Origin: Rhodobacter sp.
GTDB lineage: Bacteria; Pseudomonadota; Alphaproteobacteria; Rhodobacterales; Rhodobacteraceae
Direction of reading: 5' to 3'
DNA length: 64,000 nucleotides
Assembly (NCBI GenBank): GCA_027484145.1
Contig: JAIXUH010000013.1
Coordinates: forward strand, 434,001 to 498,000
Both the position numbers and the translations under genes were made by a program. Shown here in pieces: positions 19,223 through 37,775 of this stretch; the first letter of the stretch is position 1; each line of letters begins with the position of its first letter. The notes beneath the pieces were generated by a model. That model was not told the origin of the DNA, searched no databases, and saw nothing but the letters and a program-made list of their open reading frames with translations.

Positions 19223-19389
19223 TTTCTTCGTCCTTTTGACATCGTCGCGCGCGACTCTGCCGCGCCCTTGTGTCACTAGCTTACGGCAGATTGTGCGTGC
19301 TTGTCGCCGCCCTTTCCGCAGCGGAAGGGGTTACCCTCTTTTACGGCAAGGCGCTTTGCGGCAAACTGAAGCTGACGAAGGAGGGGTGC

Positions 19390-20124: not shown

Positions 20125-20128
20125 GCCG

Positions 20129-21949
20129 ATGCGCGGGCTTGCTGGCCTTGCCGCCGCTGTGATCTTTGCGGTGGCCGTGGCCGTGCTGGCCATCTGGCCG
20201 ATGCCGGCCGTCAACGCCCTGCGCGAACGTGGCTTTGATCTGTTCATGGTGGCCCCGGAACAGCGGGCCACCCCGGCTGTCCATGTGATCGAGACGGCAC
20301 GCCAAGGGCCATCTGGCGCGGCATGGTCCCGCCATGATCTGGCCGCCGTCATCCGGCAGGCGGCGGCGTTGAACCCGGCGGTGATCGGGATCGACATCCT
20401 TCTGGCCGGCAATTGTTCGGGCGCGGCGGCCGAGGATCTTGCCCAAACCCTTGCCACCGCTGGTGTGCCCATCGTGCTGGGGTTTTTGCTGGTGGATGAA
20501 CCGTCGCTTTCACCCGGACCGCAGCCACCCCTTGCGGTGATGGAGGGGGCCCCCGCATGGGATGCGGCGGGGGCGGATGGTCCTTGCCCAAACTTTGCCG
20601 CCTCCGCCACGGTTGCGCTGTCGGCGGTGCAGGGCAATGCCGAAGGGCGTGTGCGATGGCTGCCAGCGGCAACCTTTGTGGCCGGGCGGCCCTATCCATC
20701 GCTTTCGGTCGAACTTGCACGTCTTGGCCTAGACCTGCCGCCGGCTACCCTTGGCCACACACCGCCTGACCGCATTGGATGGCTTCGGTTCGGTGACAGC
20801 ACGTTGCCACTGGACCGCTTTGGCCAGTATCGCATTGCGCCGACACCCCCAGACCTTCGCGCGGACCGCACCCATGGGGCGCTTGACGTTCTTGAAACGC
20901 CGCCGCAGATCGCGCCGGGATCTGTGATCCTGATCGGATCGGCGCTGCCCGAGTCCGGTGGGTTGCGGCCCAGTCGCATCGGCCCGCTGCACCCGACGTT
21001 GCATCTGCAGGCGGATGGCGTGGAGCAGGTCATGGCGGGCCAAATTCCGCAACGCCCACACCGCGCCGCCATCGCCGAGGCAGGTGTTGGCCTTGCAGGC
21101 GGGCTGGCGGCAGGCCTATTGGCACAGCACTTTGCGCCGCTGATTGCTATGTCGGGGGCCTTTGCCATGGCCGCCCTTTGGACGGTGCTGGTGATGACGA
21201 TGGCACGGTTCGGCATCTTGCTGGATGCGCTGTTGCCTTCACTGGCGATCCTGGGGGCGGCAGGTTTGTCTTTGGTCATGGCGGCGACTGCCACACGGCA
21301 ATTGGCCGAGCGTCTTGGTGACCGGATGCGGCGACATCTGCCTCGATCCGTCGTGCTGCGCCTGAACCAAGGTGCGACCACGCGGCTGACCAGCGAAACC
21401 CGCGAAATCACCGCGCTTTTCACCGATATTGAAGGCTTTACCGCCCTGACACACCGCGTGCCGACCGCACAGGTGGTGGCTTTGCTTGACCGCTACATGA
21501 CCCTTGTGACCGACCTTGTCGAACGCCATGGCGGCATGGTCGACAAAATTGTTGGTGATGCCGTACACGCCTTTTTCAACGCGCCTGACAACCTTGAAGG
21601 CCATGTGGACCATGCTATTGCCTGCGCGGTGGCCATTCAACAGGCGACACAGGCCTTGCAGGACGACCCGGACTTTGCCGGAGCAGGCTTTGGGCGCACG
21701 CGTATTGGTGTTGAAACGGGCATAGCGCTTTTGGGCGATGTTGGTCGCGGCGGGCGGGTTGACTATACCGCGCACGGAGATGCGGTGAATATGGCCGCCC
21801 GTCTGCAAGAGGCGAACAAGGACCTGGGCACATCGGTGCTAATCGGCCCGCGCGCCGCGACCCTTGCCACCACTGCGCTGCGGCGCGGACCGACGATTGA
21901 TTTGCGCAGCTTTGGGCAGGTGCAAGTCAGCCTGCCCGTCATGGCCTAA
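20129..21949 (+). CDS. CHASE2-domain class III adenylate cyclase
   Basis: N-terminal CHASE2 (HDLAAVIRQAAALNPAVIGIDILL), TMs, then cyclase domain ALFTDIEGFTALTH, VDKIVGDAVHAFFNAP, VDYTAHGDAVNMAARLQEANKD. Confidence 0.9.
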   Translation: MRGLAGLAAAVIFAVAVAVLAIWPMPAVNALRERGFDLFMVAPEQRATPAVHVIETARQGPSGAAWSRHDLAAVIRQAAALNPAVIGIDILLAGNCSGAAAEDLAQTLATAGVPIVLGFLLVDEPSLSPGPQPPLAVMEGAPAWDAAGADGPCPNFAASATVALSAVQGNAEGRVRWLPAATFVAGRPYPSLSVELARLGLDLPPATLGHTPPDRIGWLRFGDSTLPLDRFGQYRIAPTPPDLRADRTHGALDVLETPPQIAPGSVILIGSALPESGGLRPSRIGPLHPTLHLQADGVEQVMAGQIPQRPHRAAIAEAGVGLAGGLAAGLLAQHFAPLIAMSGAFAMAALWTVLVMTMARFGILLDALLPSLAILGAAGLSLVMAATATRQLAERLGDRMRRHLPRSVVLRLNQGATTRLTSETREITALFTDIEGFTALTHRVPTAQVVALLDRYMTLVTDLVERHGGMVDKIVGDAVHAFFNAPDNLEGHVDHAIACAVAIQQATQALQDDPDFAGAGFGRTRIGVETGIALLGDVGRGGRVDYTAHGDAVNMAARLQEANKDLGTSVLIGPRAATLATTALRRGPTIDLRSFGQVQVSLPVMA

Positions 21950-22617
21950 GGAGCAGCACCCAGAACATCGGCAAACACGGTGGCCACACGGTCATCTGTC
22001 CAGCGGTCCGGAATTGCGGGCGGCGCCCCAATCGCCGCGATCTGCGTGCCCTGCCCCGCCAAGACGCGAACAATGCTTCCAGCGGCGGCGACAGTCACGC
22101 TGCCGCGTTCGACAAAGACGGAAAAGCCGTCACCTTCGCGCCCAGCGAAGAACCGCGTTCCGCGTACGCCGATACGACCGTACTCCGTCTGAATTTCCAG
22201 CGCGGGTTCGGTCTTGGCATCGGGGCGGTCAAAGACCAGCGCGCCGTCAAGGTGAATCACCCCGCCCGCACTGGCCAGAAACTCATCAATCCTCAGTTCG
22301 GATTTGGGGCCAAGGTGAATTTCCGTTGCCCGACCCAGACCCAGATGCGCGCGCCCCTCTTCACCCGTCACGGCGCGGTCACCCAGAAAGATCGACATGC
22401 CAGGCTGCATGGCGGGCAAGGGTTCGGCCTTGCCCACGCGCCCCGGCCCGGTGATGCCGCGCACCGTGCCAACGCCGGCGGCTTGCGCAATGGCGGGCGG
22501 GGCAAGCACGGGGCCAGACAACGCAAAAAGCCAGGCGAAACGGGCAAAGAAAGCTCCCCCGCTCAGCAGGCCAATAGCCTGTCTGCGGGGGACGGGGCGG
22601 TTCGGGTTTGAAAACAA
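21946..22617 (-). CDS. FecR-domain protein, exported
   Basis: Signal-like N-terminus, then VGKAEPLPAMQPGMSIFLGDRAVTGEEGRAHLGLGRATEIHLGPKSELRIDEF...TEYGRIGVRGTRFF. Confidence 0.82.
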   Translation of the reverse strand: MFSNPNRPVPRRQAIGLLSGGAFFARFAWLFALSGPVLAPPAIAQAAGVGTVRGITGPGRVGKAEPLPAMQPGMSIFLGDRAVTGEEGRAHLGLGRATEIHLGPKSELRIDEFLASAGGVIHLDGALVFDRPDAKTEPALEIQTEYGRIGVRGTRFFAGREGDGFSVFVERGSVTVAAAGSIVRVLAGQGTQIAAIGAPPAIPDRWTDDRVATVFADVLGAAP

Positions 22618-23200: not shown

Positions 23201-24016
23201 CTAGCGGGCCATCAGCCTTGCATGCAGAATCAGCTCTGGCCGATACTCAAAATGCATGCCGTCAAAGTGGTGCCACTTGCCGCCCCAAATAAAGCCAAAC
23301 CGTTCAAAAACCTCGACAATCTCTTGCGGGATCTTGTTGTCATAGGCACCGGCGTCGCCTTCGGCGCGGTCGGACCAGCGCCAATAGCCACCCAGTTCCG
23401 CGTTCAGATCAAAAGCGATTCCATAGCTGTGGGCAGACAACCGCTTTGTGCCGGCAATGGGCCGCCACGCAAAACTGCCGCCTACATCCTTGAAAAACGG
23501 TGACCAATCGATGCTCAACGCCTCGACCGCCGCCAGCGCTGTCGCCATCTGACAAGCAACACCGTGCTGGCCGTTCATCAGAAAGGTTGCCTTACCTTTG
23601 ATCGCGGCCTTTTCCAGCCTGTCGCGCACCGCAGCTTCGGACTCGCCGTAAAGCGCCTGAAAAAATGCCTCAACGCGCGGGCGGCCGGGATCAAACCACG
23701 GCGTTTCCCGCGCCGCCAGGTCAAAGGCCAGCGGATAGACATCGTGAAACTGCTCGCGCAGCGAAGGGTCCGCCAGACGGTCCGCCGGGGCGCGGCTTGA
23801 GTCTTCGCCCATCAGGAAGGTGGCGCCGCCAGGCAGGGTCACCTTTCCCGCATCAATGGTCAGGCCCGGATAGGCCACGCGCAGGGCGGTTTCCGCCGGA
23901 TCACCGCCAGAAGGCAAAGGCAAGGTCATGAAATCCACGGCGCCGCAATCGGCCCCCAAGGCCGGACTCGCCAAGAATGAGGCCATCAGAACCAGACGCT
24001 TGAACCCGGTCAACAT
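23201..24016 (-). CDS. Exported M15-family peptidase (D-Ala-D-Ala carboxypeptidase/endopeptidase-like)
   Basis: Signal peptide; SAHSYGIAFDLN ... KWHHFDGMHFEYRPEL zinc-ligand pattern of M15. Confidence 0.82.
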   Translation of the reverse strand: MLTGFKRLVLMASFLASPALGADCGAVDFMTLPLPSGGDPAETALRVAYPGLTIDAGKVTLPGGATFLMGEDSSRAPADRLADPSLREQFHDVYPLAFDLAARETPWFDPGRPRVEAFFQALYGESEAAVRDRLEKAAIKGKATFLMNGQHGVACQMATALAAVEALSIDWSPFFKDVGGSFAWRPIAGTKRLSAHSYGIAFDLNAELGGYWRWSDRAEGDAGAYDNKIPQEIVEVFERFGFIWGGKWHHFDGMHFEYRPELILHARLMAR

Positions 24017-25848
24017 CTCTTGGCGCGCTCCTGTTCCTTGATCTGGTTTACTTGCGCCTTTTCAGCCGCCGTCAGGCTGGGGTCAGATGTATAGCAACTT
24101 GCGTTGTCGAACCATTTCTTGCCCTCGCTTGAAGTGAAGCAATAGCCGTTGTTCGCAAAGATCTGGTTGCGCGCATACCACAGGTCAAAGCAGCTTTGCC
24201 CTGTCGTGGAAGGTGCAGGTGCGGCAGGTGCGGGCGCAACCACCTGAACACTTGGCTTGCGTCCGTTGCTGCCCATCAGATACTGGCCAGACACCCAACC
24301 CGACACGTTGTTCCAGCTGATGCTGCACCATGGTACGGGGTTGCCGGCCTGTGCCTGACAATCCGTCACATAGACCCCCGTTGCATCGGGGGGCAGTTCA
24401 GACACCCATGCATATTGTGGGCTTGGCCCAGACTGGACCGGCACCATTCGGTCCAAGGGGTGATCAACAACGGCGTAATATCCGGCTTCGGGCGATGCCA
24501 CAGGTACTGCGCCCTGATCCGTCAGATAGCTTTGGAAGGCGTAGCCGACGGTGCAGCCATATTCGACCTGACACCAGTTGTTCTGGCAGCCGTAATGATT
24601 CAGGCCCGCAGCGTTAAAGGGCAATTCCCCCACCATGGCAGCATTTGCATCTGGCGCGGCCCTGACCGCCAGCGTTTCGCCAAAGGGCACGCCCGCCACC
24701 GAAACGGGGCCCGTCAGGGCGGTACAGCTTCCGGTGTAGGCCGCGGCCGGTGGTTCCGGTGTCGCAGGTGGGGCAAGCGCGGCAAGGCGGGCTTCGGCAT
24801 CGGCCCGGTGCGCGCCTTGCGGAAATACCAGCAGATAATTGCGATAGGCGGCTTCTGTGTCTTCGGTGGTGGCGCTGGCCCAGATCTCTTGTTCGACCAT
24901 GTCCTCTACAAGGGCGCGGGCATCCTTGGCCCGGATATGATCGGGGTAACGGCTGATGAAGTCTTCCAAGGCCGCGCGATCCCGGCTTTGCACCGCCTTC
25001 AGATAGGTCAAAAGCGGATCTTCGATGGCTGTTTTTGGGGCGGGCGGCGGCGTTTGTGGCTGGGTTTGCAACGGCGCTGCACCCGCCACCAGATAGATGT
25101 CCTCGTCCGGCAACTGCGCCTGTTCGATCGGCACCTGCTGGCCGCCCGATTTTTCGCGCACCTTGGCCCGAACGGCGCGGAACATGCGGCCCACTTCCAT
25201 GCCGGGCTGGCCGATCACCTCCAGCAGCGCTTCGGTATAGGGGCTGTGCATGGCCCCGCCGTCATCTGCCGTGCGGCCTGCCTCGGCCGCGAATGAGATC
25301 AGCAGCCCCTTTTCCCCCTCGACCGACACCGGCGCCAACCCGCGTGAGATGGCACGCGTGCCGTTCTTACGCGTCATGGTGGCGGCAAACGGGTTGTCGC
25401 GGCAGGCATCCAGCATGATCATGCCAAGTTTGCGGGCCGAGCGGACCGCGGTCAGAACCTGTTCCAGAGGCACGGTTTCAAACTGTGCCGTCGCTTCGGA
25501 TTTCATCTTGGCATCAACCGGGATCAGAAAGTTCTGCCCCGCCAGCTCGATGCCATGGCCGGCATAGAAGAACAGCGCGATGTCGGCATTCAGAGCGGCT
25601 TCAGAAAACTCGCCCAAGGCCACGCGGAAACCTTGCCCGTCAAGGTCTTCGCGCAAGATCACGTCAAAGCCGATGCCTGCCAGCTTTTCCGCAATGGCGC
25701 GGGCATCGTTACGCGGATTGGCAAGGGCTGATGCGTTCTGATAGGCGGCATTTCCCACCACCAACGCCACGCGGTTTTCGGCGAATGCGGGCCACGCCAT
25801 GATCAGCATGGCCAGAACGAACCGCAGCCCAAGACCTAACCCCCGCAT
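24010..25848 (-). CDS. Exported caspase-like (peptidase C14) protein with SH3-like and C-terminal YARHG domains
   Basis: RVALVVGNAAYQN, catalytic His FFYAGHGIE, catalytic Cys MLDACRDNPF; C-terminal CFDLWYARNQIFANNGYCFTSSEGKKWF (YARHG). Confidence 0.85.
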   Translation of the reverse strand: MRGLGLGLRFVLAMLIMAWPAFAENRVALVVGNAAYQNASALANPRNDARAIAEKLAGIGFDVILREDLDGQGFRVALGEFSEAALNADIALFFYAGHGIELAGQNFLIPVDAKMKSEATAQFETVPLEQVLTAVRSARKLGMIMLDACRDNPFAATMTRKNGTRAISRGLAPVSVEGEKGLLISFAAEAGRTADDGGAMHSPYTEALLEVIGQPGMEVGRMFRAVRAKVREKSGGQQVPIEQAQLPDEDIYLVAGAAPLQTQPQTPPPAPKTAIEDPLLTYLKAVQSRDRAALEDFISRYPDHIRAKDARALVEDMVEQEIWASATTEDTEAAYRNYLLVFPQGAHRADAEARLAALAPPATPEPPAAAYTGSCTALTGPVSVAGVPFGETLAVRAAPDANAAMVGELPFNAAGLNHYGCQNNWCQVEYGCTVGYAFQSYLTDQGAVPVASPEAGYYAVVDHPLDRMVPVQSGPSPQYAWVSELPPDATGVYVTDCQAQAGNPVPWCSISWNNVSGWVSGQYLMGSNGRKPSVQVVAPAPAAPAPSTTGQSCFDLWYARNQIFANNGYCFTSSEGKKWFDNASCYTSDPSLTAAEKAQVNQIKEQERAKRC

Positions 25849-25851
25849 CGG

Positions 25852-27252
25852 TCAGCCCCCAAGTTCGGCGATACGGGCGGCCGTGACCTGATACACACAG
25901 TCATAGACACCCTGCCCCCGGCCTGCACAGGTGGCATCGCGTAACTTGATCCAGTCTCGCTGCGCCGATTTCGTCACGCGGCCCAAGGCAAGGGCGGTGC
26001 GGAAGGCGGCAACGTTGCCGTGGTCTTGCAGGGCCAATTCAGCATTCGAACAGATGGCAACCTCAACCTCGGTCCGGGCAAGGCCACAATCGAATGACGG
26101 GGCAACGTTGCCCCGTTCTGCCTGAACGGCGGCAGGCGGCGTTGCAGGCTGTCTTGCGGCCTGATGCGCCTCAAGCGCAGCTGTGGCCTCGTGCACATGT
26201 GCGCCAGCGGGGAAAACCAGAATGTAGCGGCGCATGGCAGCCTCGGACCCATCGGCGGCCACCATTTTCCACATCGCATCATCTTCGATGGATTCGATCA
26301 GGCGCTGCGCATCGGCAGCCCGCGGATGATCGGGGTAAAGCGCCACAAATTCGGCCAGCTTTGCGCTGTCATTTGCGCGCACGGCATCAAAGAACACCAT
26401 CGACGGCTCTGGCGCTGCCGGTTCTTCGGCTGGCTCCAGCGATGCACTGAACTTTGGGCGCAGGGTCGCTTCTGCCGATGGCAAAACAGCGGGCGTGATG
26501 AAGACATCGGTATCGGGCAATTGTGCCTGTTCCACCGGCACCTGCCGCCCACCGGATTTTTCCCGCACCTTGGCGCGTAGGGTGCGGAACATGCGGCCCA
26601 CTTCAAGGCCGGGTTCATCCAGCGTTTCCAACAGCGCCTCGGTGTATGGGCTGTTGGTTCCGTCGCCGTCATCGGCGGTGCTGCCCGCCTCGGCCGCGAA
26701 GGACACCACGATGCCACCCTCGCCCTCCACCGACACGGGCGCCAATCCACGGGATACGGCGCGCGTGCCTGAACTGCGGGTCATGCTGTTGCCGAACGGA
26801 TTGTCGCGGCAGGCATCCAGCATGACGATGCCCAGTGTTTTTGCCCCGCGAACGGCCTGCAGAACCTGATCGAGAGCAACCGTTTCAAACTGCGCCGTCG
26901 CCTCGCTGCGCATTTCGGAATCGACCGGGATCAGATAGTTGCGCCCCCCCATCTCGATCCCGTGACCCGCATAGAACACAAGGGCGATATCGGCCTGCAG
27001 TGCCCGTTCGGAAAAATCGCCCAGTGCGATGCGAAAGGCCTGACCGTTCAGGTCGGTCTGCAGCATCACGTCAAACCCTAGGACCGACAGCTTTTCCGCC
27101 ACGCGTGTCGCGTCATTCACCGGGTTCGCCAGCATGCTGGCGTTCTGATAGGCCGCGTTGCCAACAACCAGCGCCACCCGCGTCTGCGATGCGGCCGGGG
27201 TCAGCGCCGACAGGATCATCAAGGTCGCAAATGCTATGGCACGAAAGATCAT
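25852..27252 (-). CDS. Exported caspase-like (peptidase C14) protein with C-terminal LprI-like Cys-rich domain
   Basis: VFYAGHGIE / MLDACRDNPF; signal peptide MIFRAIAFATLMILSALTPAASQ from 27252; C-terminus FDCGLARTEVEVAICSNAELALQD...RDATCAGRGQGVYDCVYQVTAARIAEL. Confidence 0.85.
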   Translation of the reverse strand: MIFRAIAFATLMILSALTPAASQTRVALVVGNAAYQNASMLANPVNDATRVAEKLSVLGFDVMLQTDLNGQAFRIALGDFSERALQADIALVFYAGHGIEMGGRNYLIPVDSEMRSEATAQFETVALDQVLQAVRGAKTLGIVMLDACRDNPFGNSMTRSSGTRAVSRGLAPVSVEGEGGIVVSFAAEAGSTADDGDGTNSPYTEALLETLDEPGLEVGRMFRTLRAKVREKSGGRQVPVEQAQLPDTDVFITPAVLPSAEATLRPKFSASLEPAEEPAAPEPSMVFFDAVRANDSAKLAEFVALYPDHPRAADAQRLIESIEDDAMWKMVAADGSEAAMRRYILVFPAGAHVHEATAALEAHQAARQPATPPAAVQAERGNVAPSFDCGLARTEVEVAICSNAELALQDHGNVAAFRTALALGRVTKSAQRDWIKLRDATCAGRGQGVYDCVYQVTAARIAELGG

Positions 27253-27341
27253 GGCGAGGCCCTCACTGGCCACAAACAGTGCCAGCCGATTTGGTCGCTG
27301 TATAGGGCGAAGTCGGGCCACAATCTGGCATTTTCACCCCG

Positions 27342-28919
27342 TCAGCCTTCGGTGAACAGACCAATGCGGCCAAACTGGCAAGCGGTATCTGCCGTCGTTG
27401 CAATGATCTCGGACACCGGAGGAACCGGCAACCCGTTAGCCTGTGCCAAAAGCGCATGAAGGGCCAAGGGCGGCCGACGGCACCAGATCACGATCAACTG
27501 ATCTTCGCCCGTTGGTGGCGCCACGGAAAACCGCAGGGCAAGGCCCTGATCAGCAGGCGCATCCTCACGGAAGCCGGGCGGATACAGACCATACTGCACC
27601 GTTCCGTCCGAGGCGAGGTTGAACAGGGTCAGAAAGTTCAGGTCAGCGGCGGGGGGCGGAAAGTCAAAGCCAACCGTGGCCCCGATGGGCTGGCGCGCGG
27701 CAGATTGGTGCGGAGTCAGTACCACAGGCGGCAGGTTCAGAACCTTGGCGTCGTTCAGATCAATCAGAAAGCGCGCACGTTCAATCTGCGGACGGGCGTC
27801 AGAGTTGATCACCGTCACCCTGTCACCCTGACCGTTGAACACGGCCCAGCCTTCGGCGACCCGTTCAAACATCAGCGACTGCCCCTGATCCACCAGACGG
27901 CAGCCGGGGCATTGACCATTTTCCAGCCCCGGCGGCGGCGCACCCACCACCTTGACAGGCAGTCCGGGCGGCAAGGGGGCGGGTGGCGGCGGGGCTTCGG
28001 CCTGCAGCGACAGCATCACCGACGGGTCGCCGCGCGGCAGAAACCGGGGTTGCTGGTTCTGATCCATATGCGTGAACACGCGGTCACCGACAAAGCTGGC
28101 AATCTCCAGCCGGGTCAGAACACCATCGCTGTTCATATCGGCCTCACCCTCGATCGCCTTGGCAAAGAACCACGACAGGGCGCCATGCGGCTGACCATCG
28201 AAAGCTGTTTCCTGCACCAGCCGGTCGTCGCTTGCAGTGGCCAGAACCTGCGTTACATGCGCCAGACTTGGCGCGCCCGTATCACCCGCCCCAGAGGGCG
28301 CCTCGGTCGGTATCGGGTCAATCGGAATATCCCAGATGCCCCCTGAACGGCTAAGGCCAGCGGCATGGGCAGAAACACTCCGCTCCAGCCCACCGGAATG
28401 GCAACTGTCCATCACCCAGACCACCTGAAGCTGCGGAACGGACGCCAGCATTTCATGCAACTGGTCATCGTTCAGACGACCCGCGCGCGCATTGTTGGGG
28501 TCGAAATCGGCAAACATCAGGGTTTCGTCCAACCCGTCCTTTTCATCAACCGGCTCGGACGCCTCACGCTCTTGCCCGCCATGTCCGGCATAGGTGACAA
28601 AGACCCGGTCGCCCGGTGCGGCCTGTGTCACAACTTCGGTCCAAGCGGCCTGAAAGGCACCAAGGGTTGCGGTCTGGTTCAGCAAGAACCGATTGTCGGG
28701 CAGATCGACCCCGACTTTGCGAAGGGCGGCCGCCACGACCTTGGCATCGTTCACCGCCCCCTGCAGGTCTGTGTGGCCACTGGCCGGGCGGTTGGGATCA
28801 AAGGGTTCGAAATTGATATAGTCATCAATTCCAACCACAATGGCCCAATCGCGCGCCATGGCAGGTCCGGTCAGCGCAACACACGCGACCAGCGCCAGAA
28901 TGAGCGATTTAGTAGCCAA
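27342..28919 (-). CDS. Exported metacaspase-like protein with EF-hand loop and C-terminal DUF4384-like region (TTG start proposed)
   Basis: DWAIVVGIDDYINF, His FVTYAGHGGQ, Cys VMDSCHSGG; EF-hand loop DMNSDGVLTRLE at 28104-28139. TTG at 28919 gives signal peptide LATKSLILALVACVALTGPAMA; track start 29120 overlaps the OmpA gene by about 200 bp. Confidence 0.82.
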   Translation of the reverse strand: MATKSLILALVACVALTGPAMARDWAIVVGIDDYINFEPFDPNRPASGHTDLQGAVNDAKVVAAALRKVGVDLPDNRFLLNQTATLGAFQAAWTEVVTQAAPGDRVFVTYAGHGGQEREASEPVDEKDGLDETLMFADFDPNNARAGRLNDDQLHEMLASVPQLQVVWVMDSCHSGGLERSVSAHAAGLSRSGGIWDIPIDPIPTEAPSGAGDTGAPSLAHVTQVLATASDDRLVQETAFDGQPHGALSWFFAKAIEGEADMNSDGVLTRLEIASFVGDRVFTHMDQNQQPRFLPRGDPSVMLSLQAEAPPPPAPLPPGLPVKVVGAPPPGLENGQCPGCRLVDQGQSLMFERVAEGWAVFNGQGDRVTVINSDARPQIERARFLIDLNDAKVLNLPPVVLTPHQSAARQPIGATVGFDFPPPAADLNFLTLFNLASDGTVQYGLYPPGFREDAPADQGLALRFSVAPPTGEDQLIVIWCRRPPLALHALLAQANGLPVPPVSEIIATTADTACQFGRIGLFTEG

Positions 28920-30114
28920 AGGCGACCTCCACCCGCCGCGCAATCGTCCGCAGCTCATCGATCGAGTATACAGCGGCATCGGTATAAAGTGGGGGTTCGC
29001 TCTCCCCTTTGCCCACCACGGTAATCCGTGTCTGGACCCCATCGCTGAGCAGGAAACCGGCAAGGCTTTCGGCGCGGCGCAGCGACAGATCAAGGTTATA
29101 GTTGCCATCGCCGACATCATCGGTGTGCCCGGTGATCACCAGTTGGCCAACGGCATTCGCCTTCAGAAATTCGCCCAGACGCAGCGCTTCACGCACGCCA
29201 GAGGCGTCAAGCTGGTCACTGTCAAAGCCAAAGCGGATGGGCAGGAACACGCTGTCCACCTTTTCCGCTGCCGCCGAGATCACGTTGTATTCCTGCGGCG
29301 CCGGTTGATAGGCAGGTTGCGCCGGGGCATTGGCATAGGGGTCGGCGGTCGGTTCGGGTGCGGCAGGCTGAACATAAGTGGTCACCGCTGAGTCTTCGGA
29401 CTGTGCAGTATAGGTGTCAGCGGCCGGTTGCGGCGGTTGGGCCACATAAGCATCGTTTGCGGGCTGCTGCGTCGCATATGTATCCGTGGTTTGTCCGGCT
29501 GCGGGTGCCGTTGCGACCTTTTCCACCGCAAGGCCGCGTGCTGCCATCGCCATGACGCCCGAGGCACCGCCACCACGCGTCACCGTGCTTTCCATGCTGC
29601 CGGCCAGCATCATGTTTTCCTGCGCCAGTGCCGAAAGCCGCTCGGCCACCGGCACCAGTTGTTCATTCTGAACGGTCTGCACCGGGTCGCCCAGTGTATC
29701 AAGGGCAGCGTTATACATCTTGGCGGCCTCGGCGCGATTGCCGCGTTTTGCGGCGATGTCACCGCGCACGGCCTGTACGGCCCAATGCACACCGGGGGCC
29801 TGCAGCACCAGTTCTTCAGCCCCGTCAACATCGCCGTTCGTCAGCAGACCCTGCGCCGCCCGCGCGATCAGGGCCGAGGTTTGCGACCGAGCGCCGCGCA
29901 GTTGGGCATCGTCACAACCCGCCGGAGCAACAGCCTGCCATGCTGCAAGGATCGCGGCAGAGTCGGTTCCACCCGACGCCACTTGCAGCGCCGTCAGAGC
30001 CGTTTCACAGGTGCTTTGTGCGGTTGCTGCCGCCGGAAGCCCGGCGAGCAGCGTTATCATTGCCATGCCTTGCCAAACCTGGCGCGGCAGGGGAAGTCGA
30101 GAACGTAGGGTCAT
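28909..30114 (-). CDS. OmpA-family (peptidoglycan-associated) protein
   Basis: Signal peptide; C-terminal FLKANAVGQLVITGHTDDVGDGNYNLDLSLRRAESLAGFLLSDGV. Confidence 0.9.
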   Translation of the reverse strand: MTLRSRLPLPRQVWQGMAMITLLAGLPAAATAQSTCETALTALQVASGGTDSAAILAAWQAVAPAGCDDAQLRGARSQTSALIARAAQGLLTNGDVDGAEELVLQAPGVHWAVQAVRGDIAAKRGNRAEAAKMYNAALDTLGDPVQTVQNEQLVPVAERLSALAQENMMLAGSMESTVTRGGGASGVMAMAARGLAVEKVATAPAAGQTTDTYATQQPANDAYVAQPPQPAADTYTAQSEDSAVTTYVQPAAPEPTADPYANAPAQPAYQPAPQEYNVISAAAEKVDSVFLPIRFGFDSDQLDASGVREALRLGEFLKANAVGQLVITGHTDDVGDGNYNLDLSLRRAESLAGFLLSDGVQTRITVVGKGESEPPLYTDAAVYSIDELRTIARRVEVAFGY

Positions 30115-30131
30115 TCCAGTCTTCCTTTGAT

Positions 30132-33100
30132 TTAATGCGATACGTTGAAAGTGACGGCATTGGTGGCGCTTTGGCCATTGTCCTTTGCCACCTGATCTGT
30201 CCGCTCAATCACCAGACCGCGCGACAGCGGCTGGAAACGTTCCTTTGCATAATCGACGGCGCCCTGCCCGCTGATCCGCTTGTCGCCAAGTCCGCCTTCG
30301 CGGCAGAAGGCCACCATCGTTTCACCCTTGCCGGGAGTGTCAAAGCGCAGTTGCAGACCCGATCCGGGGAAGGGAATGCGCCGCGTTTCACCAGCCTCAA
30401 GGAATACCGGGCCAAGCACTTCGGGCGGCAGTTCCTCGACCGTCTTGGTCTCTTCGACGTACAGCACCTGCAACTCACACTTGCGGTTGGCGCGCACATC
30501 GAATTCCAGCAGATCGTTGACCTTGACCTCAACCTTCGGCACCCAAAGTTCAAGGATCAGCGGATCGGCCGCCTTTACCGGGGGCTGATAGGGCGGCAGC
30601 GCGCTTTCCGGCTGCGGCACATAGGCGACCTGAGCCTGTGTGGCCTCATACTGCAGGGCCTCGGTCGCCTGCTGGTCATAGTTCGCAACAGGCTGCGGCT
30701 GATAGTCGTTCTGACCGGGCCGATAGGGGCGCAGGTCGGTCAGACGCGGCAGAAGGTCTGGCCAAACCGCCTCGATCTCGGACCGGCTGACATAGAGGCC
30801 GTCATCGACACGCTGCACCCACTGGTCAACCGTCTGCATCAGCAGCGGATCACCCATTTCGCGCATACGTTCGCGGAATTCTTCTTCGGTCAGGAAGAAG
30901 GTCCGCGCCACTTCGGCCAGATCAAGGTTGTCGAACTGAATGTCCGACAGATACGTCATGATCTCACCCCCGCCGGCCTTGGCCGGAGCCGCCATCGAAA
31001 CCTCCAGTCCGGCTGCGTTGGTTTCAGTGATTCCCAGCGTTTCCAGCGCGCGGCGGAAGGTTTCCGCATCCTTGGAGTAATACTCCTCCATCTCTTCGGC
31101 GGGGATATACATCTCCAGCAGCACCTCGCGCTGATCGCGGGTCAGGCGGTTGCTGGATTCGATGAAGCGGCGGATTTCATCGGTTTTGCGGATCATACCG
31201 TTTTCGTGGCAGTCAAAGCAGGACCGGCCATTCTCGATCTCGACGCCCTTGCCGATGGGCTTGTTGCGGTACGACACAATCGAGGTGGGGCCGACAAGCA
31301 AGCGTTCGCCTGCTGCGGTGGACAGGTAATAGCCCTGCAATCCGTTGGCGAGGCTGAAGATCATCTCGCCGCCGTCATGTTCGAAGGGTTCGGTGCCAGA
31401 TGGCAGCGGCATCGCTTCGGCCGGGCCATCGGGGTGCAAAAGCAGCGATTGCACGCCGTCACTGCCGGCAAAGTCATACGACTTCCAGTAGTAGCCACCG
31501 CGTGGCAGGTCCATCCGTTCCAGCATGCGGTTGTGGTCCGACACGCCTGATGTACCTTCGCCAAATCCGGCGCGGACAACTTCGCCTTGCTGGATCAGCG
31601 AATTCACATCGACACCCATCCGAACCTCAAGTTCCTTGATGTCGGCAGGCAGGCGCAGAAGCAGGTCATAGAACGGCGCTTCCGAGGCGACATGGGTGAA
31701 CCAGCTTGCCCCCAGAATTGGCACAGGCGCGCCGGTGCCATCCGCCAGAACCTTCAGCAGGCTGTCCGACGCTGGGTCCATCGCATAGGGGTAAAGGCGG
31801 GCCAGATCCCTCCAGCCTTCTTCGGTAAAGCCAGCCTCGACCGACCCTTGGGTAAAGGCGCCGGTCGACAGAGAGGCCCAGTCGTCAAGCGTCCAGCCAT
31901 AGTCGCGGATATCAACCCGGACCAGAGCGCCATCTGTGCCAGCCACAGGTGTGACCTTGGCCAAGGTTGCCGCGCGGCTGACCGAGTTGATGAACTTGTT
32001 CAGGCCCGCGTGCAGAAATGCCATCGGGTTTGCCCGCATTCCGGTCTGCGTGCAGTCAACTTCCGGAATTTCGGTATCGGCAAAGCTGAAATAGCGGATG
32101 AAGGCGCGGTCGCGTTCCTCTTGCGCCTGCAAGTCACCCACCGCTGCCAGCATGATCTGGTTGAAGTCGCCCCCCACGAACCGAGGGATTGCCACTTCGG
32201 GGCGGGGCAAGACCACTTCGGCGGCAGCCGTAGCCGTGGCCGCAGGGGCGGCGGGGGCGGCAGCCTCAACCGGGGCGGCGGCCTTGGCCTTTTCCACCTC
32301 GCCCAAAGCCACGATCCATGCCTTGATCGAGTCCAATTCCGCCGTCGTCAGCTTTGCGCCAAGGGGCATGCGGTTCAGCGCAATCGAGGCATAAAGCGGC
32401 GACTTGTCCGGATCGCCCGGAATAACGTGTGTGGTCTGCACCGCCATATCGCCAATGTCATGCATCGGGAAGGTGCGGTCGTTGCGTTGACCGGGGCCAT
32501 GGCAGGTGCGGCACTTGTCGTCCATCACCAGATCGGCGGCACGCTCAATCTCGGCCGGCACGCCAGCCACAGCCGCAGGTGCTGCAGGCGCCGGTTCCGG
32601 CGTGGCGACAGCTTCCAAAACTGGGGCAGCCGCCGGGGGTTCGCAGGCGGCGGCAACAATCTGCATCAGGCCTTCGGAGGCGGTCTGCTTGCCAATTTCG
32701 ACCGGGTCGATCTTGGCCACAGTCGCCACTACATCAGCGGCGGGTGCTGCATCTGTCGTGGTGGCAGGCGCATCGGCGACGGTTGTCACTTCGGCCTGCA
32801 CCAGTTGCACCGGTGCCTGCGGCAGGGTGGCCACATCGATCGGCTTGCCACTCAGATAGGCAAAGATCGCAGCACGGTCCTCAAGGCTCAGCTTTGCCGT
32901 TTGTTCCGCAACGCGGCGCATCGATCCGGCGGCCAAGGCCTTGCCGTTCAGCTTTTTGCCTTCGGCAAGGGTGCCGATGATAAACGCCTCGGGCCCGACC
33001 TTTTCCAGCCGCGCGGCCGAGATGTCGGGTGAATAGTCACCGAAAAAGCCCATAAATCCGGTGTAGGCATTGGCCGTGTCCAGATCAAAGCCGTCACGCG

Positions 33101-33716
33101 GCGTATGGCATTCGGCACAGTGGCCCAGCGCCTCGACCAGATACTGGCCGCGGGCCAATTGCGGGTCTGTTGGCGGGGTCAGCGCGGGACGCTCGACGTT
33201 CAGCAGCACGAGTGCCGAATGGCTGAATACGTTCACCTCATTCTCTTTCGAGGGGAGGTCACTGGTTTCCATCGTTTTCAGGTAGGCGCGCAGATCAAGG
33301 GCATCTTCCGGCTTCATCCGGGCATAGGCCGGAAACGGGAAGAAGGCACCATAATAGGGTTCACCTTCGGGCGACACGCCGCGCATCAGGGCGTTCAGGA
33401 ACTGGGCATCGGTCCAGCTACCAATACCCGCCACAGGATCATGCGTGATGTTGGGCGCGTAGACCTTGCCGAGGCGGTTTTCAAACACCCGCCCCCCGGC
33501 AAGGATCATCATCTCGCCCTCAATCGAGTGGCACGTGGCACATCCGGCGGCGTTATAGACCACCTCGCCATGCGCCGCGTCAGGTTTGTAGCTGTCGAAC
33601 TGCCCTTCCGTAAACTCCGGAAGCTCTGCCATGGCCGGGGTCGAAAACAGGGCCAGTGCGAGGATGCCGATGCTTGTCTTCAGTCGAATTGCCGTGATTG
33701 CCATGATGTTCTCCAT
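30132..33716 (-). CDS. Large exported multi-heme c-type cytochrome (four CXXCH) with C-terminal DUF4384-like domain
   Basis: 1194 aa, signal peptide; CATCH (33528-33542), CAECH (33105-33119), CRTCH (32499-32513), CFDCH (31206-31220); C-terminal LELWVPKVEVKVNDLLEFDVRANRKCELQVLYV. Confidence 0.88.
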   Translation of the reverse strand: MENIMAITAIRLKTSIGILALALFSTPAMAELPEFTEGQFDSYKPDAAHGEVVYNAAGCATCHSIEGEMMILAGGRVFENRLGKVYAPNITHDPVAGIGSWTDAQFLNALMRGVSPEGEPYYGAFFPFPAYARMKPEDALDLRAYLKTMETSDLPSKENEVNVFSHSALVLLNVERPALTPPTDPQLARGQYLVEALGHCAECHTPRDGFDLDTANAYTGFMGFFGDYSPDISAARLEKVGPEAFIIGTLAEGKKLNGKALAAGSMRRVAEQTAKLSLEDRAAIFAYLSGKPIDVATLPQAPVQLVQAEVTTVADAPATTTDAAPAADVVATVAKIDPVEIGKQTASEGLMQIVAAACEPPAAAPVLEAVATPEPAPAAPAAVAGVPAEIERAADLVMDDKCRTCHGPGQRNDRTFPMHDIGDMAVQTTHVIPGDPDKSPLYASIALNRMPLGAKLTTAELDSIKAWIVALGEVEKAKAAAPVEAAAPAAPAATATAAAEVVLPRPEVAIPRFVGGDFNQIMLAAVGDLQAQEERDRAFIRYFSFADTEIPEVDCTQTGMRANPMAFLHAGLNKFINSVSRAATLAKVTPVAGTDGALVRVDIRDYGWTLDDWASLSTGAFTQGSVEAGFTEEGWRDLARLYPYAMDPASDSLLKVLADGTGAPVPILGASWFTHVASEAPFYDLLLRLPADIKELEVRMGVDVNSLIQQGEVVRAGFGEGTSGVSDHNRMLERMDLPRGGYYWKSYDFAGSDGVQSLLLHPDGPAEAMPLPSGTEPFEHDGGEMIFSLANGLQGYYLSTAAGERLLVGPTSIVSYRNKPIGKGVEIENGRSCFDCHENGMIRKTDEIRRFIESSNRLTRDQREVLLEMYIPAEEMEEYYSKDAETFRRALETLGITETNAAGLEVSMAAPAKAGGGEIMTYLSDIQFDNLDLAEVARTFFLTEEEFRERMREMGDPLLMQTVDQWVQRVDDGLYVSRSEIEAVWPDLLPRLTDLRPYRPGQNDYQPQPVANYDQQATEALQYEATQAQVAYVPQPESALPPYQPPVKAADPLILELWVPKVEVKVNDLLEFDVRANRKCELQVLYVEETKTVEELPPEVLGPVFLEAGETRRIPFPGSGLQLRFDTPGKGETMVAFCREGGLGDKRISGQGAVDYAKERFQPLSRGLVIERTDQVAKDNGQSATNAVTFNVSH

Positions 33717-33727
33717 GACGTGTAATC

Positions 33728-35098
33728 TTATCTGAATTCAAAACGTTCGAAGTGGATGGCGCGGGGCACCTTGCCCGACGCCTTTAGGTCTTTGACAAGG
33801 CCTTCGCGCATGGGCGCCGGGCCGCAGAACCAGAAGCTTGCCTGCGCGATCTCGAACGGCAGGTAACTGACCAGTTTTGCCGCATCAAAGCGGCCGTCTG
33901 TGTCACTGCAATGAAGCTTCAGGGTAAATCCTGGCACCCGTTCGGCCGCGGCGCGCAAGCGGTCCAGCGCCACGCCTTCGGCCTCATTGCGGATACAATA
34001 GATCATGCAGATCTGCTCGGCGTCGCCCGGCTTCAGGTGGTCAGCCCAGGCGATGAATGGCGTCACGCCGATGCCCGCAGCCACCCACACCTGTTTGGGT
34101 CCACCGCGGTGATGATGAAACCGCCCATAGCCCCCTTCGACCTTTGCCGTGTCGCCCACCGAAAGCGCGTCGCGCAGGTGGCGCGTGTAATCGCCCAGCC
34201 CCCGGATCGAGAACTGTATCCCCCCGTTGGGCCGCACCTGCGACACAGTAAAGGGATGCGGCTCGCCCAGACCCTTGGCCGAGAATTTGACGAAAGCGAA
34301 ACTGCCGGGGCGGACTGACACGCCGCGCCCTGCGGGTTCCAGATCGACAATCGTCGCAGCAGGGTGCTTGGTGACGGCCGTTACCTTGTAGGCGCGGCGG
34401 CGCACCAGAAACCCGAACTGCGACCACAAGAACGCCGCCGCCCCGACCGCAGCCGCGCCGTTCAAGTAATAGGCCAGCAGCGCATTGTTATCGAACGGCG
34501 CCTTGACGAAGAACTGGTGAAACGCAATGCCAAGAAACACAACGCCCAGCAGGCGGTGACTTTGTCGCCAAATTCCATAGGGGATTTCCCATGTGATCTT
34601 GGGCATCTTCGGCACCCGTTTGAAAAAGCTGATCAGAACAAGAAAGACCATCAGGTAAAACGAAATTTCGGCCACTTGGATGGCAAGCTCGCTGATCGCG
34701 GCCATCACCTGCAGCCCATCTGTGGCGATCTTGATCTGCTGGTGCAGGAACGCGCAAGTCAGGATCAGCATACCCAGCCACTTGTGGACCCAGTAAACCT
34801 GATCAAGGCCATCGAACATGGCATCGATTCCGGGCAGGCGTGCGGCCATCACAAGATTGATTGCCATCAGGGTGAACGCGGTGGCCCCAAGCGCAATCAC
34901 GGGCCAGGTGGTTCCGGGCAAATGGCCCGCTGCGGCAAAGGCGAGTGCCACGGGCAGTAAAATACCAACGATGATGACCAAGATCTTGCCAAGCAAAGGA
35001 AGCGTCCCATCAAAAGAATCTGACCGCTCCAGCAATCGTGAACGGCAGGTGTAGCTTAGTGAAGGAAAGCGGATTCCCGCAAAGCCTTTTTGTTGCAT
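33728..35098 (-). CDS. Ferric-reductase/NOX-like transmembrane flavocytochrome (TM heme domain + FAD/NAD module); start uncertain
   Basis: TM region with VHKWLGMLILTCAFLHQQ and RQSHRLLGVVFLGIAFHQF; FAD HPFTVSQ; NAD VAAGIGVTPFIAW; C-terminal SFWFCGPAPMREGLVKDL. Track start 35530 adds an unsupported N-terminus; ATG 35098 or a nearby TTG is more likely. Confidence 0.85.
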   Translation of the reverse strand: MQQKGFAGIRFPSLSYTCRSRLLERSDSFDGTLPLLGKILVIIVGILLPVALAFAAAGHLPGTTWPVIALGATAFTLMAINLVMAARLPGIDAMFDGLDQVYWVHKWLGMLILTCAFLHQQIKIATDGLQVMAAISELAIQVAEISFYLMVFLVLISFFKRVPKMPKITWEIPYGIWRQSHRLLGVVFLGIAFHQFFVKAPFDNNALLAYYLNGAAAVGAAAFLWSQFGFLVRRRAYKVTAVTKHPAATIVDLEPAGRGVSVRPGSFAFVKFSAKGLGEPHPFTVSQVRPNGGIQFSIRGLGDYTRHLRDALSVGDTAKVEGGYGRFHHHRGGPKQVWVAAGIGVTPFIAWADHLKPGDAEQICMIYCIRNEAEGVALDRLRAAAERVPGFTLKLHCSDTDGRFDAAKLVSYLPFEIAQASFWFCGPAPMREGLVKDLKASGKVPRAIHFERFEFR

Positions 35099-35155
35099 GA
35101 GGGAAAGCGTGTTCCATAGGTAACCGGGTTTGCGCGCGGCTGAAATTCGTATTGA

Positions 35156-35170
35156 ATAACAGTCTGTTAT
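35156..35170. promoter_or_regulatory. Perfect 15-bp palindrome, candidate operator upstream of the flavocytochrome-cytochrome-caspase operon
   Basis: ATAACAG-T-CTGTTAT in the roughly 330-bp gap between 35098 (minus) and the small ORF at 35432 (plus). Confidence 0.5.
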
Positions 35171-35431
35171 GATGTTTCGCAGGACAAAATGTCTGGGCTC
35201 TGGGGCCGGAAGGATTGTTTTCTCGGTGCGAATCTGTGTTCGGGCTGCTGAAAACCGGGCCGAAACTGTAGACGTTGAACAACAACTTCGCCCTTCGGCA
35301 TCCCCTCGCAGGGGGTCCGCCGACGGCGAGGTCAAGACCGAAAAGCGGCTTTGGCATGCGGCATCGGGATTGGTCGTTGCGCCAAAGGGGCTATGGGTGC
35401 ATCCTTTGCACGTCACGAGTAAGGGTTTGCG

Positions 35432-35575
35432 ATGTTGGATGCCGATCAGATCGACGCGTTCCGGGATATGTGCGTCCCTGACCCTGCCAAGGTGCTGCCT
35501 GTGGTGAATCCCGCAAAACGTGCCGCACAACCGAAGCCGGCCGCCGCAGTAACGACCCCGGTCCGCACAGCCTGA
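35432..35575 (+). CDS. Possible small ORF (47 aa), not in the supplied track
   Basis: SD-like AAGGG then ATG: MLDADQIDAFRDMCVPDPAKVLPVVNPAKRAAQPKPAAAVTTPVRTA, ending 3 bp before the convergent kinase stop. Confidence 0.4.
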   Translation: MLDADQIDAFRDMCVPDPAKVLPVVNPAKRAAQPKPAAAVTTPVRTA

Positions 35576-35578
35576 CGC

Positions 35579-37027
35579 TCAGCCCTCTTGGCGCTGGTCT
35601 TCTGAAGGGGCGATTTCGGGTTCTGCCACAACGCCGTGTTGCGGCAACCGGATCACGCTGACGCTACAGGGTGCTTCGGCAACGACATGGCTGGACACAG
35701 AGCCAAGATAGCGCCGAGTGGCCGAATGGCTGCGCGCGCCCATCATCACATGGTCGACGTGGTTCTTTTGCACATAGTCGATGATGGCCTGCCCGGGATC
35801 GGGCCCTTCCAGAACGGTAAAGGTCAAGCGGTCTTCGGGCAGTTGCAATGACGCGGCCCAATCGCGCAACGCCAGAAGTCGCGATACATGCAGGTGTTCG
35901 CCGTTGTCGTCGGTGGTTTGGTCAATGCCCATACGGGCGGTCTTAATCACGTTCACACAGGCCACGCGCGCATCGGGCTGAATCACCAGCATCTGCTTGG
36001 TCGACAGCAACAGGTGCTGGCCCAGTGCTTCCATATCCGGCGCAAGGTCGACTGCCACCATAAGAACGGGTGCCTTGCTGATCTGGGCACCGGTGCTGGG
36101 AGGGCTGGCAAAACCGCGCACCTTTCGCATCACGCGCCATCGCCGGAACACCACCATGGCGCCGTCCCGCGCGGTGCGCTGGGCGCGTGCGGTCAGACGC
36201 ACCTGACGCGGGTGTTGCAGATCGAACATCATCTGCGCCGCCGACTGATAGCGGTCTTTGGGGTCAACCTCCAATGCGCGCAACACAATTTCCTGCATCC
36301 ATTCGGGGATGGTGCGGTCAAGGCCACGTGGCGGCACAGGATCACGCCACAGGCGTTTGCGCACGGCAGTGAGTTTTTCCGGCTGTCCGAACGGCAGTTT
36401 TCCGGTCAGCAATTCGTACAGGATTGCGCCAAGGGCAAAGATGTCGCTGCGCAAATCGCCCCGCTGCCGCAGGAACTGTTCCGGCGCGATATAGGGAAAC
36501 GTGCCCATCGGAATGGTAAACTCTTCATCCAGCAGGTCGGGCAAGTGGTCATGCCGTGACAGGCCAAAATCGATGCAAACCATCTTGCCGTTTTCGCGCT
36601 GCAGGAAATTGGCAGGCTTCAGGTCAAGGTGGATGACGTGCTGCTTGTGCAACTCATGCACCGCTTCGGCCATGCGGGCGGCAATCTCAACCGCTTCGGA
36701 CACCGGGCGCGGTGCGGTTGAAAACAGCGTCAGCAGCGAAGGCCCCGAAATGCGTTCGGTCACGATATAGGGCATTTCCGAAAAGTCGCCGATCGCGATC
36801 AGGCGCGGAACATGCGGGCCGGACAGGCGTGGCATGATCATCTGTTCCACTTCGAACCCCACGATTGTTGGGGCATCATAACCATCAAGAAGCGTGGGCA
36901 CCTTCATGATCAAGGGATGCGTGTGGTCGGGGTGGTTCACATCCCAGATTGTGGCAAAACCACCTTTGTGGAGGCACTCGCCCAAGGTAAAACCGTCAAT
37001 CTCCAGACCTGGCCGCGGGCGGTGCAT
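35579..37027 (-). CDS. Serine/threonine protein kinase fused to a C-terminal universal stress protein (Usp) domain
   Basis: HKGGFATIWDV, VIHLDLKPANF, VCIDFGLSRHD, GTFPYIAPEQF, DLRSDIFALGAILYELLTG; C-terminal VLMVAVDLAPDMEAL...VDHVMMGARSHSATRRYLGSVSSHVVAEAPCSVSVIR. Confidence 0.9.
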   Translation of the reverse strand: MHRPRPGLEIDGFTLGECLHKGGFATIWDVNHPDHTHPLIMKVPTLLDGYDAPTIVGFEVEQMIMPRLSGPHVPRLIAIGDFSEMPYIVTERISGPSLLTLFSTAPRPVSEAVEIAARMAEAVHELHKQHVIHLDLKPANFLQRENGKMVCIDFGLSRHDHLPDLLDEEFTIPMGTFPYIAPEQFLRQRGDLRSDIFALGAILYELLTGKLPFGQPEKLTAVRKRLWRDPVPPRGLDRTIPEWMQEIVLRALEVDPKDRYQSAAQMMFDLQHPRQVRLTARAQRTARDGAMVVFRRWRVMRKVRGFASPPSTGAQISKAPVLMVAVDLAPDMEALGQHLLLSTKQMLVIQPDARVACVNVIKTARMGIDQTTDDNGEHLHVSRLLALRDWAASLQLPEDRLTFTVLEGPDPGQAIIDYVQKNHVDHVMMGARSHSATRRYLGSVSSHVVAEAPCSVSVIRLPQHGVVAEPEIAPSEDQRQEG

Positions 37028-37034
37028 GGTCGTC

Positions 37035-37775
37035 TTACGCTCCTGTATTCAGACGTATCGCCAAAGACTCGGGCAGGCCCAGCCGCCGAATCTTGCTGAC
37101 CGTGGCCGACACGTCATAGGCGATGCGGCGAAAGGTCAGTTCGTTCGTGTCGGTGTCTAGGATGGCATAGGCCGCCTGCGGCTCCCCATCTCGTGGCTGA
37201 CCGACCGAGCCGATGACCGCAAGCCAGCGCCGCGTGCGGATCAGCGGGATCGCCATGCCGGGGGGAATGCGCTGTTGCTTGATACGACCGCCCAGATCCT
37301 CACTGAACAGCGTCGGAACATGGCAATGGCCGCAAAAGATCAGCCGCGCCTTGCTGACCTCGAAAGACCCGATGGCACGGGTTTCGCTGGAGACATAATT
37401 CCAGTCGGCGGGATCATTGGCACTGGCATGGACGAACAAGATGTCATCCAGCTGCTTTGTCAGCGGAAGGCGATCCAGAAATTCGCGCTGCTCATCGGAC
37501 AGGATGGGCCGCGTCCAGTTGACGATGCGGCGCGCAGTAATGTTCAGCGACTCGGCCGGGTTGGCGATGGCGCTGTCATGGTTGCCCTTGATGCACCATG
37601 CGCCGGCGGCCACCAGTTCCATCGCGCGGTCCACGCACCACTCGGGATCAGGGCCATAACCGACGATGTCACCCAGCAGGGCATAGCGATCAATACCACG
37701 GTCGGACAGGTCGGTCAGAACGGACTGGAACGCCTCGCGGTTGGCATGGATGTCCGTTAGGATGGCTATACGCAT
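37035..37775 (-). CDS. Metallophosphoesterase (calcineurin-like)
   Basis: MRIAILTDIHANREAFQSVL, LLGDIVGYGPDPEWCV, CIKGNHDSAI, FCGHCHVP. Start 37775 preferred over track 37874. Confidence 0.9.
   Translation of the reverse strand: MRIAILTDIHANREAFQSVLTDLSDRGIDRYALLGDIVGYGPDPEWCVDRAMELVAAGAWCIKGNHDSAIANPAESLNITARRIVNWTRPILSDEQREFLDRLPLTKQLDDILFVHASANDPADWNYVSSETRAIGSFEVSKARLIFCGHCHVPTLFSEDLGGRIKQQRIPPGMAIPLIRTRRWLAVIGSVGQPRDGEPQAAYAILDTDTNELTFRRIAYDVSATVSKIRRLGLPESLAIRLNTGA

Follow-up and report, generated by a model that had tools for sequence, protein, structure and literature searches.

A run of minus-strand genes in a 64,000-nt stretch of Rhodobacter sp. DNA (the window; host genome 4.97 Mb, Rhodobacteraceae) places an NADPH oxidase-type flavocytochrome b (NOX) next to a large multihaem cytochrome c, an OmpA-family protein and three caspase-like proteases. 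Do these genes belong together, and if so, what would a membrane oxidoreductase have to do with proteases? An initial annotation had read nine genes of this run as a redox-controlled system of the envelope. Its central idea, one conserved and apparently undescribed envelope module joining electron export, a periplasmic cytochrome and caspases, holds for a smaller set of genes. The occurrence of this set across many alphaproteobacteria suggests a new redox-controlled protease system of the cell envelope.

Extent and conservation of the gene set

The gene content of the window was checked with open reading frames (ORFs) and Pfam. All nine minus-strand genes were recovered at the positions and with the domains given by the initial annotation, and the nearly gapless run that it had described from 35098 to 23201 was borne out, with junctions of 11 bp, 17 bp, an overlap, about 90 bp (if the inner ATG is taken as the start of caspase B), 3 bp and a 7-bp overlap. 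This run is the actual unit: NOX, tetrahaem cytochrome, OmpA, caspase C, caspase B, caspase A and, as an accessory member, an M15 peptidase, read in this order from 35098 to 23201 on the minus strand.

Relatives were searched for among 199 genomes of Rhodobacteraceae, with about one genome for each genus. The cytochrome is matched over its full length in the window genome and four others (52-55% identity), and eight further genomes held a relative of its C-terminal part only. In the 20-kb surroundings, the order NOX-cytochrome-OmpA-caspase C-caspase B-caspase A(-M15) was kept in three other genera, with variants in two. A scan with an alignment of the cytochrome core, using one genome per species, gave 197 relatives in Rhodobacterales and Rhizobiales. 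The best 80 of the 197, those closest to the window, were retrieved, and the locus counts below do not cover the other 117. The retrieved relatives include Rhizobiaceae (Shinella, Rhizobium, Ensifer, Pararhizobium, Hoeflea) as well as Stappiaceae, Devosiaceae, Xanthobacteraceae, Chelatococcaceae, Pleomorphomonadaceae and others.

A set of 83 non-redundant loci, selected by the cytochrome alone, was analysed by local profile searches and gene calling. A NOX gene on the same strand lies directly upstream of the cytochrome in 78 of the 83 loci, the exceptions being contig ends (L053, L102, L127), a broken cytochrome gene (L098) and an inverted NOX (L035). OmpA is found within 2.5 kb of the cytochrome in 75/83 loci. 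Proteases of the C14 or CHAT type occur within 6 kb in 78/83 loci, and 70/83 loci carry at least two proteases. The caspase-like and OmpA genes recur jointly across genera, whereas the kinase-Usp gene that the initial annotation had grouped with them recurs in no other locus. A synteny confined to close relatives would have counted against the proposal, and this is not what was seen: the gene order recurs in two bacterial orders.

Could common caspase, OmpA and cytochrome genes have come together by chance, or by shared horizontal transfer only? Some of these genomes hold many caspases and the module appears to have moved between orders, both of which would favour incidental clustering. However, 92 C14 genes in 16 related genomes (78.2 Mb) correspond to about 0.026 expected per random 22 kb, against the presence of a protease in 78/83 loci. 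Furthermore, genes overlap by 4 bp, and gene orders change yet the members stay. We regard incidental clustering as extremely improbable, and the NOX-cytochrome-OmpA-protease set as very probably a functional module.

Flanking genes are unlike between Rhizobium, Shinella, Ensifer and Rhodobacterales. In a quick tree of the cytochrome, the four-haem type of both orders groups together and Chthonobacter (Rhizobiales) is placed inside Rhodobacterales with strong support, which indicates that the module probably moved horizontally between orders. A plasmid search returned one Neorhizobium plasmid only, on which the NCBI annotation lists a caspase, OmpA, a 'ferredoxin reductase family' protein (the NOX) and a c-type cytochrome in a row. 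When Alphaproteobacteria and the phylum were sampled widely, hardly any matches lay beyond Rhodobacteraceae because few genomes per family were drawn; by direct sampling of Rhizobiaceae, 14 of 151 genomes were positive. Just upstream of the module, 24 rhizobial loci (L074-L101, e.g. L085:5345-7165) carry, on the opposite strand, a gene for a serralysin-like M10/RTX protease.

Two of the nine genes were tried as members and rejected. The Ser/Thr kinase-Usp fusion (35579..37027, minus strand; Pfam Pkinase and Usp) and the metallophosphoesterase (37035..37775, minus strand; Pfam Metallophos) are placed outside the module because a gap of 480 bp (35099..35578) separates the kinase gene from NOX, and because neither gene recurs in any of the related loci; the kinase-Usp gene was also found in none of 15 congeneric genomes. 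The nine-gene grouping is kept from NOX to M15, and the kinase/phosphatase sensing is dropped from the model. The module promoter likely lies in the 480-bp gap. A sigma-70 promoter scan of this gap found no site, and motifs of FNR, LexA, EcfG, RpoE, RpoH, CtrA, ChvI and a few other regulators were not enriched upstream of NOX. Beside the module, at 19270-22617, a CRP/FNR-type regulator, a CHASE2-adenylate cyclase and a FecR-domain protein adjoin one another, and are likely a separate cAMP-type signalling unit.

The NOX and its candidate electron acceptor

The first gene of the module (33728..35098; a later TTG start near 34997 is possible) encodes a membrane protein with the Pfam domains Ferric_reduct, FAD_binding_8 and NAD_binding_1. 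Its closest solved relative is SpNOX (PDB 8qt6, E 3e-36). Two bis-His haem pairs, H-X13-H and H-X12-H, are located in the membrane domain, with all four histidines invariant in 83/83 relatives, and the C-terminal motifs HPF[TS], GxGxTP and CGP are found in 83, 82 and 82 of these, respectively. By its haem, FAD and NAD(P)H motifs, the protein fits the NADPH oxidase family.

The cytochrome (30132..33716; 1194 aa, with a putative export signal) consists of an N-terminal dihaem c domain, a third CXXCH, a central domain (some 470 residues) with the fourth CXXCH in the motif GGExIFxLPNG...SCxxCHxxG, and a DUF4384 Ig-like C-terminus, for which the Pfam match is weak (1.8e-5). The N-terminal dihaem domain is related to common dihaem cytochromes; the first 300 residues match these in about 140 genomes and were dropped as a family-defining region. 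No family match to the 1194-aa protein was found in NCBIfam, and a comparison of its whole length with the PDB returned only FoxE and c6-like fragments. The AlphaFold model of residues 392-1194 is confident (pLDDT 87, pTM 0.84), and a Foldseek search of the PDB with this model gave nothing at E<1e-3, only weak Ig-like matches. These large multihaem cytochromes appear to be an unnamed family, in which the central domain as modelled resembles no solved fold.

Among the 199 Rhodobacteraceae genomes, NOX proteins at 46-49% identity occur exactly in those with a four-haem full-length cytochrome. The next NOX group (about 41% identity) is found in other neighbourhoods with PepSY-like, ApbE-like and two-component genes and without caspases; at L134-L138 the surroundings of this subfamily are plasmid-like and recur, with PepSY-like, ApbE-like and response-regulator genes. 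The distance matrices of NOX and cytochrome correlate with r = 0.98, and with 0.92 within Rhodobacterales.

A sister type of locus combines an exported trypsin-like SH3 protein with a two-haem cytochrome and OmpA, and is without NOX in 8/8 Rhodobacteraceae loci. The two-haem cytochrome is without the N-terminal dihaem domain. Loci thus have either both NOX and this domain or neither, a pattern that argues for electrons passing directly between the two. SpNOX has been reported to reduce cytochrome c directly in vitro, its knockout had no reported phenotype, and acceptors other than O2 have been suggested (Hajjar et al. 2017, PMC5676040). Judged from the loci compared, the constant unit is the cytochrome core, OmpA and an exported protease. 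The trypsin-cytochrome-OmpA trio was seen at L036-L042 and L148 (e.g. L037:6462-11776), often beside an amino-acid ABC transporter, and its cytochrome carries DUF4384.

These observations bear on two other accounts of the NOX. It could be that the module is an electron-transfer branch in the first place, where NOX and cytochrome reduce an external or periplasmic acceptor, OmpA tethers them to the cell wall, and the role of the caspases is limited to maturation or turnover of the cytochrome. NOX and a multihaem cytochrome together make an obvious path for electrons, no other conserved part is as large as the cytochrome, and SpNOX is able to pass electrons to cytochrome c (PMC5676040). We consider this account possible, on the unlikely side, as the sister type does without NOX yet retains the cytochrome core, OmpA and an exported protease. 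Moreover, a locus can hold as many as four proteases with intact catalytic residues, more than maturation would call for, and proteases of different classes (C14, CHAT, trypsin) replace one another. Alternatively, the purpose of NOX would be to produce superoxide or peroxide, used as a trigger or a weapon, and the cytochrome would do no more than absorb these products or protect against them as a peroxidase. The NOX signature residues are all intact and O2 can be reduced by bacterial NOX (PMC5676040), but the one-to-one pairing and co-evolution with the tetrahaem cytochrome favour direct transfer, and we hold this second account to be very unlikely.

Exported proteases and a proposed redox-gated mechanism

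Signal-peptide-like N-termini, judged by eye, are present on the OmpA, cytochrome, caspase and M15 proteins. The OmpA-family protein (28909..30114; Pfam OmpA 1.9e-12) carries the peptidoglycan-binding motif TD..G...LS..RA, which is found in 86/87 OmpA relatives. Caspase A (24010..25848; Peptidase_C14 1.5e-37) has SH3_3 (5e-13) and YARHG (2e-15) domains, and caspase B (25852..27252, longest ORF reaching 27321; C14 1.8e-37) has an LprI-like C-terminus (1.4e-6). The longest ORF of caspase C (27342..28961; C14 9e-14) reaches 29120, with the true start at 28961 or 28919. The C14 p20 scores of the three window caspases are 130, 129.7 and 52.1 bits against a family cut-off of 21.4. A His-Cys catalytic dyad is found in 3/3 window caspases and in about 147 of 151 caspases of the relatives, compared to 75% of alphaproteobacterial metacaspases generally (PMC3501461). 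By domain and intact dyad the window caspases fit Peptidase C14, and proteolysis is predicted.

Caspase C is orthologous to the rhizobial caspase that comes first and adjoins OmpA (A3 alignment), and the two share an EF-hand-like D-x-N-x-D-G loop, a possible calcium-binding site of metacaspase type, for which the Pfam EF-hand match is weak. Its predicted fold is closest to GSU0716, MALT1 and Arabidopsis metacaspase 9 (E ~1e-8 to 1e-10). Close relatives (>800 bits) were limited to four of the five genomes with a full-length cytochrome among the 199 Rhodobacteraceae, and no close paralogue was found in the window's genome. This genome carries 11 caspase-domain genes, three of them in the module. 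DUF4384 is common to the cytochrome and a caspase: in hhalign comparisons, the C-terminus of the second rhizobial caspase is a clear match, whereas those of caspase C and of the first rhizobial caspase were not convincing against the cytochrome DUF4384.

The M15 D-Ala-D-Ala carboxypeptidase-like protein (23201..24016; Pfam Peptidase_M15_4 3e-22) is, as the initial annotation had it, part of the window run with a putative export signal. It is an occasional addition across loci (the window, L031/L072, L050, L051 and L098) and not a constant member.

CHAT-domain proteins, of the same protease clan as C14, stand instead of caspases at L121, L128 and L125. They are 1400-1650 aa long and lie beside OmpA, NOX and cytochrome in Roseibium and Hoeflea (L121:1657-6612, L128:1782-6752, L125:3309-7607). 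The protease class varies (C14 or CHAT) while the cytochrome and OmpA persist. Elsewhere, OmpA and caspase-C-like genes have other partners, FGE-sulfatase or two-component genes, as expected if the OmpA-caspase pairing behaves as an effector cassette with exchangeable inputs.

Such OmpA and caspase-C-like genes without NOX or cytochrome were seen at L156, L158, L159 and L160, by FGE-sulfatase proteins and tad-type secretion genes or by a two-component system and a solute-binding protein. Additionally, a variant module of the Zongyanglinia group (L034/L056, L059, L060, L071; cluster c26) holds an exported YARHG protein of about 490-500 aa with a weak Clp-protease-like region, and also caspases, one having a NADase-translocation domain.

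A redox-gated envelope protease module is in our judgement the best explanation, held tentatively and with not quite an even chance of being right. It builds on what the sequences establish, i.e. which genes are present and in what order, their co-evolution, intact residues for catalysis and haem binding, and export signals (by eye). NOX would take electrons from cytoplasmic NAD(P)H via FAD and two b-haems, and would pass them on, on the periplasmic side, to the dihaem domain at the N-terminus of the cytochrome, a flow proposed by analogy with SpNOX in vitro (PMC5676040). The cytochrome core, with two further haems, the central domain and DUF4384, may be a redox sensor or store and a docking platform. 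Proteases docked through DUF4384 and OmpA would then be released or activated by the cytochrome; in this way wall-anchored OmpA and cytochrome would control the exported caspases, and envelope proteins would be cut upon a redox change. In some species the M15 enzyme may also act on peptidoglycan. The biological output may be envelope remodelling, a stress response, defence or cell sacrifice/death.

A plausible reason for the pairing of NOX with caspases is that a catalytic cysteine needs control in the oxidising periplasm. Modules with serine proteases are without NOX and those with cysteine proteases have NOX, a pairing that fits redox control of the catalytic cysteine as a single phylogenetic contrast. 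Several points weigh against the redox-gated protease module. The combination of serine protease, no NOX and two haems is one contrast, not eight, because there is one deep split in the tree. The similarity of caspase C to DUF4384 is weak. Five of the 83 loci (L120, L123 and L126 among them) have no visible protease nearby, two of the five being at contig ends. Finally, NOX could reduce O2 instead of the cytochrome.

The same gene set might serve periplasmic oxidative-damage control, where NOX and cytochrome provide reductant or detoxify peroxide and oxidised proteins of the envelope are cleared by the caspases, with a logic like that of MsrPQ. A connection of bacterial metacaspases with oxidative stress has been reported (PMC3501461, PMC7889975), and a membrane flavocytochrome with a periplasmic partner has a layout like that of MsrQ-MsrP (discussion of PMC5676040). 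This explanation is nevertheless doubtful: Pfam found no molybdopterin or methionine sulfoxide reductase domain in the module proteins, and no stress-regulator signal was seen upstream among FNR, LexA, EcfG, RpoE, RpoH, CtrA and a few others.

A further possibility concerns cell death. The alphaproteobacterial periplasm is the compartment equivalent to the mitochondrial intermembrane space. There, cytochrome c fed by NOX might act with the caspases as a single switch for death or defence that is set off by redox changes. Such a switch would correspond in bacteria to the link between cytochrome c and caspases in animal apoptosis, whether through shared logic or shared ancestry; we think this quite improbable.

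Comparison with known systems

PADLOC 2.0 matched no defence system, giving only weak generic 'caspase' and MotB-like matches. No description of a caspase-cytochrome-OmpA, caspase-NOX or NOX-cytochrome-caspase cluster was found in the searched literature, which was mostly without subscription papers. We regard the system as new although its enzymes, the cytochrome core excepted, come from known families.

Protease-effector death and conflict systems, such as bacterial gasdermin loci and Craspase, use interchangeable caspase, CHAT or trypsin proteases (see PMC9612521, PMC9729208). The redox-gated module proposed here is alike in that the same three protease classes substitute beside a constant partner. 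Those systems are cytoplasmic, whereas the module proteases appear exported and are without gasdermin, CRISPR or a nucleotide-binding sensor; Pfam found no gasdermin gene among the module genes of the window, to which this gene-by-gene scan was confined.

Prokaryotic metacaspase and orthocaspase operons share C14 proteases with a His-Cys dyad and OmpA neighbours; OmpA was noted in 14 metacaspase operons, and multi-metacaspase operons occur in Alphaproteobacteria (Asplund-Samuelsson et al. 2012, PMC3501461). The main text of this survey is without cytochromes, and the NOX-cytochrome half and the two-order module are absent there. Compared with MALT1, metacaspase 9 and GSU0716, caspase C adds the EF-hand-like loop, a DUF4384-like C-terminal domain and a bacterial export signal. 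Most bacterial caspases have no assigned role.

MsrPQ likewise has a haem membrane protein that passes electrons to a periplasmic partner. However, MsrQ is without flavin domains, its partner is a molybdopterin enzyme and no proteases are involved, whereas the module NOX has FAD and NAD domains.

For the physiological partner of bacterial NOX, still an open question (PMC5676040), the module names a specific candidate acceptor. By tying the NOX to caspases, the module joins this question to that of the caspases, and both can therefore be tested in ordinary laboratory species, for example Shinella, Ensifer or Rhodobacteraceae. With SpNOX and other bacterial NOX proteins, the module NOX has in common the enzyme architecture, the bis-His haem motifs and the FAD and NAD(P)H motifs. 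SpNOX is without a known physiological partner, whereas the module NOX has a set place next to a single kind of tetrahaem cytochrome and to proteases.

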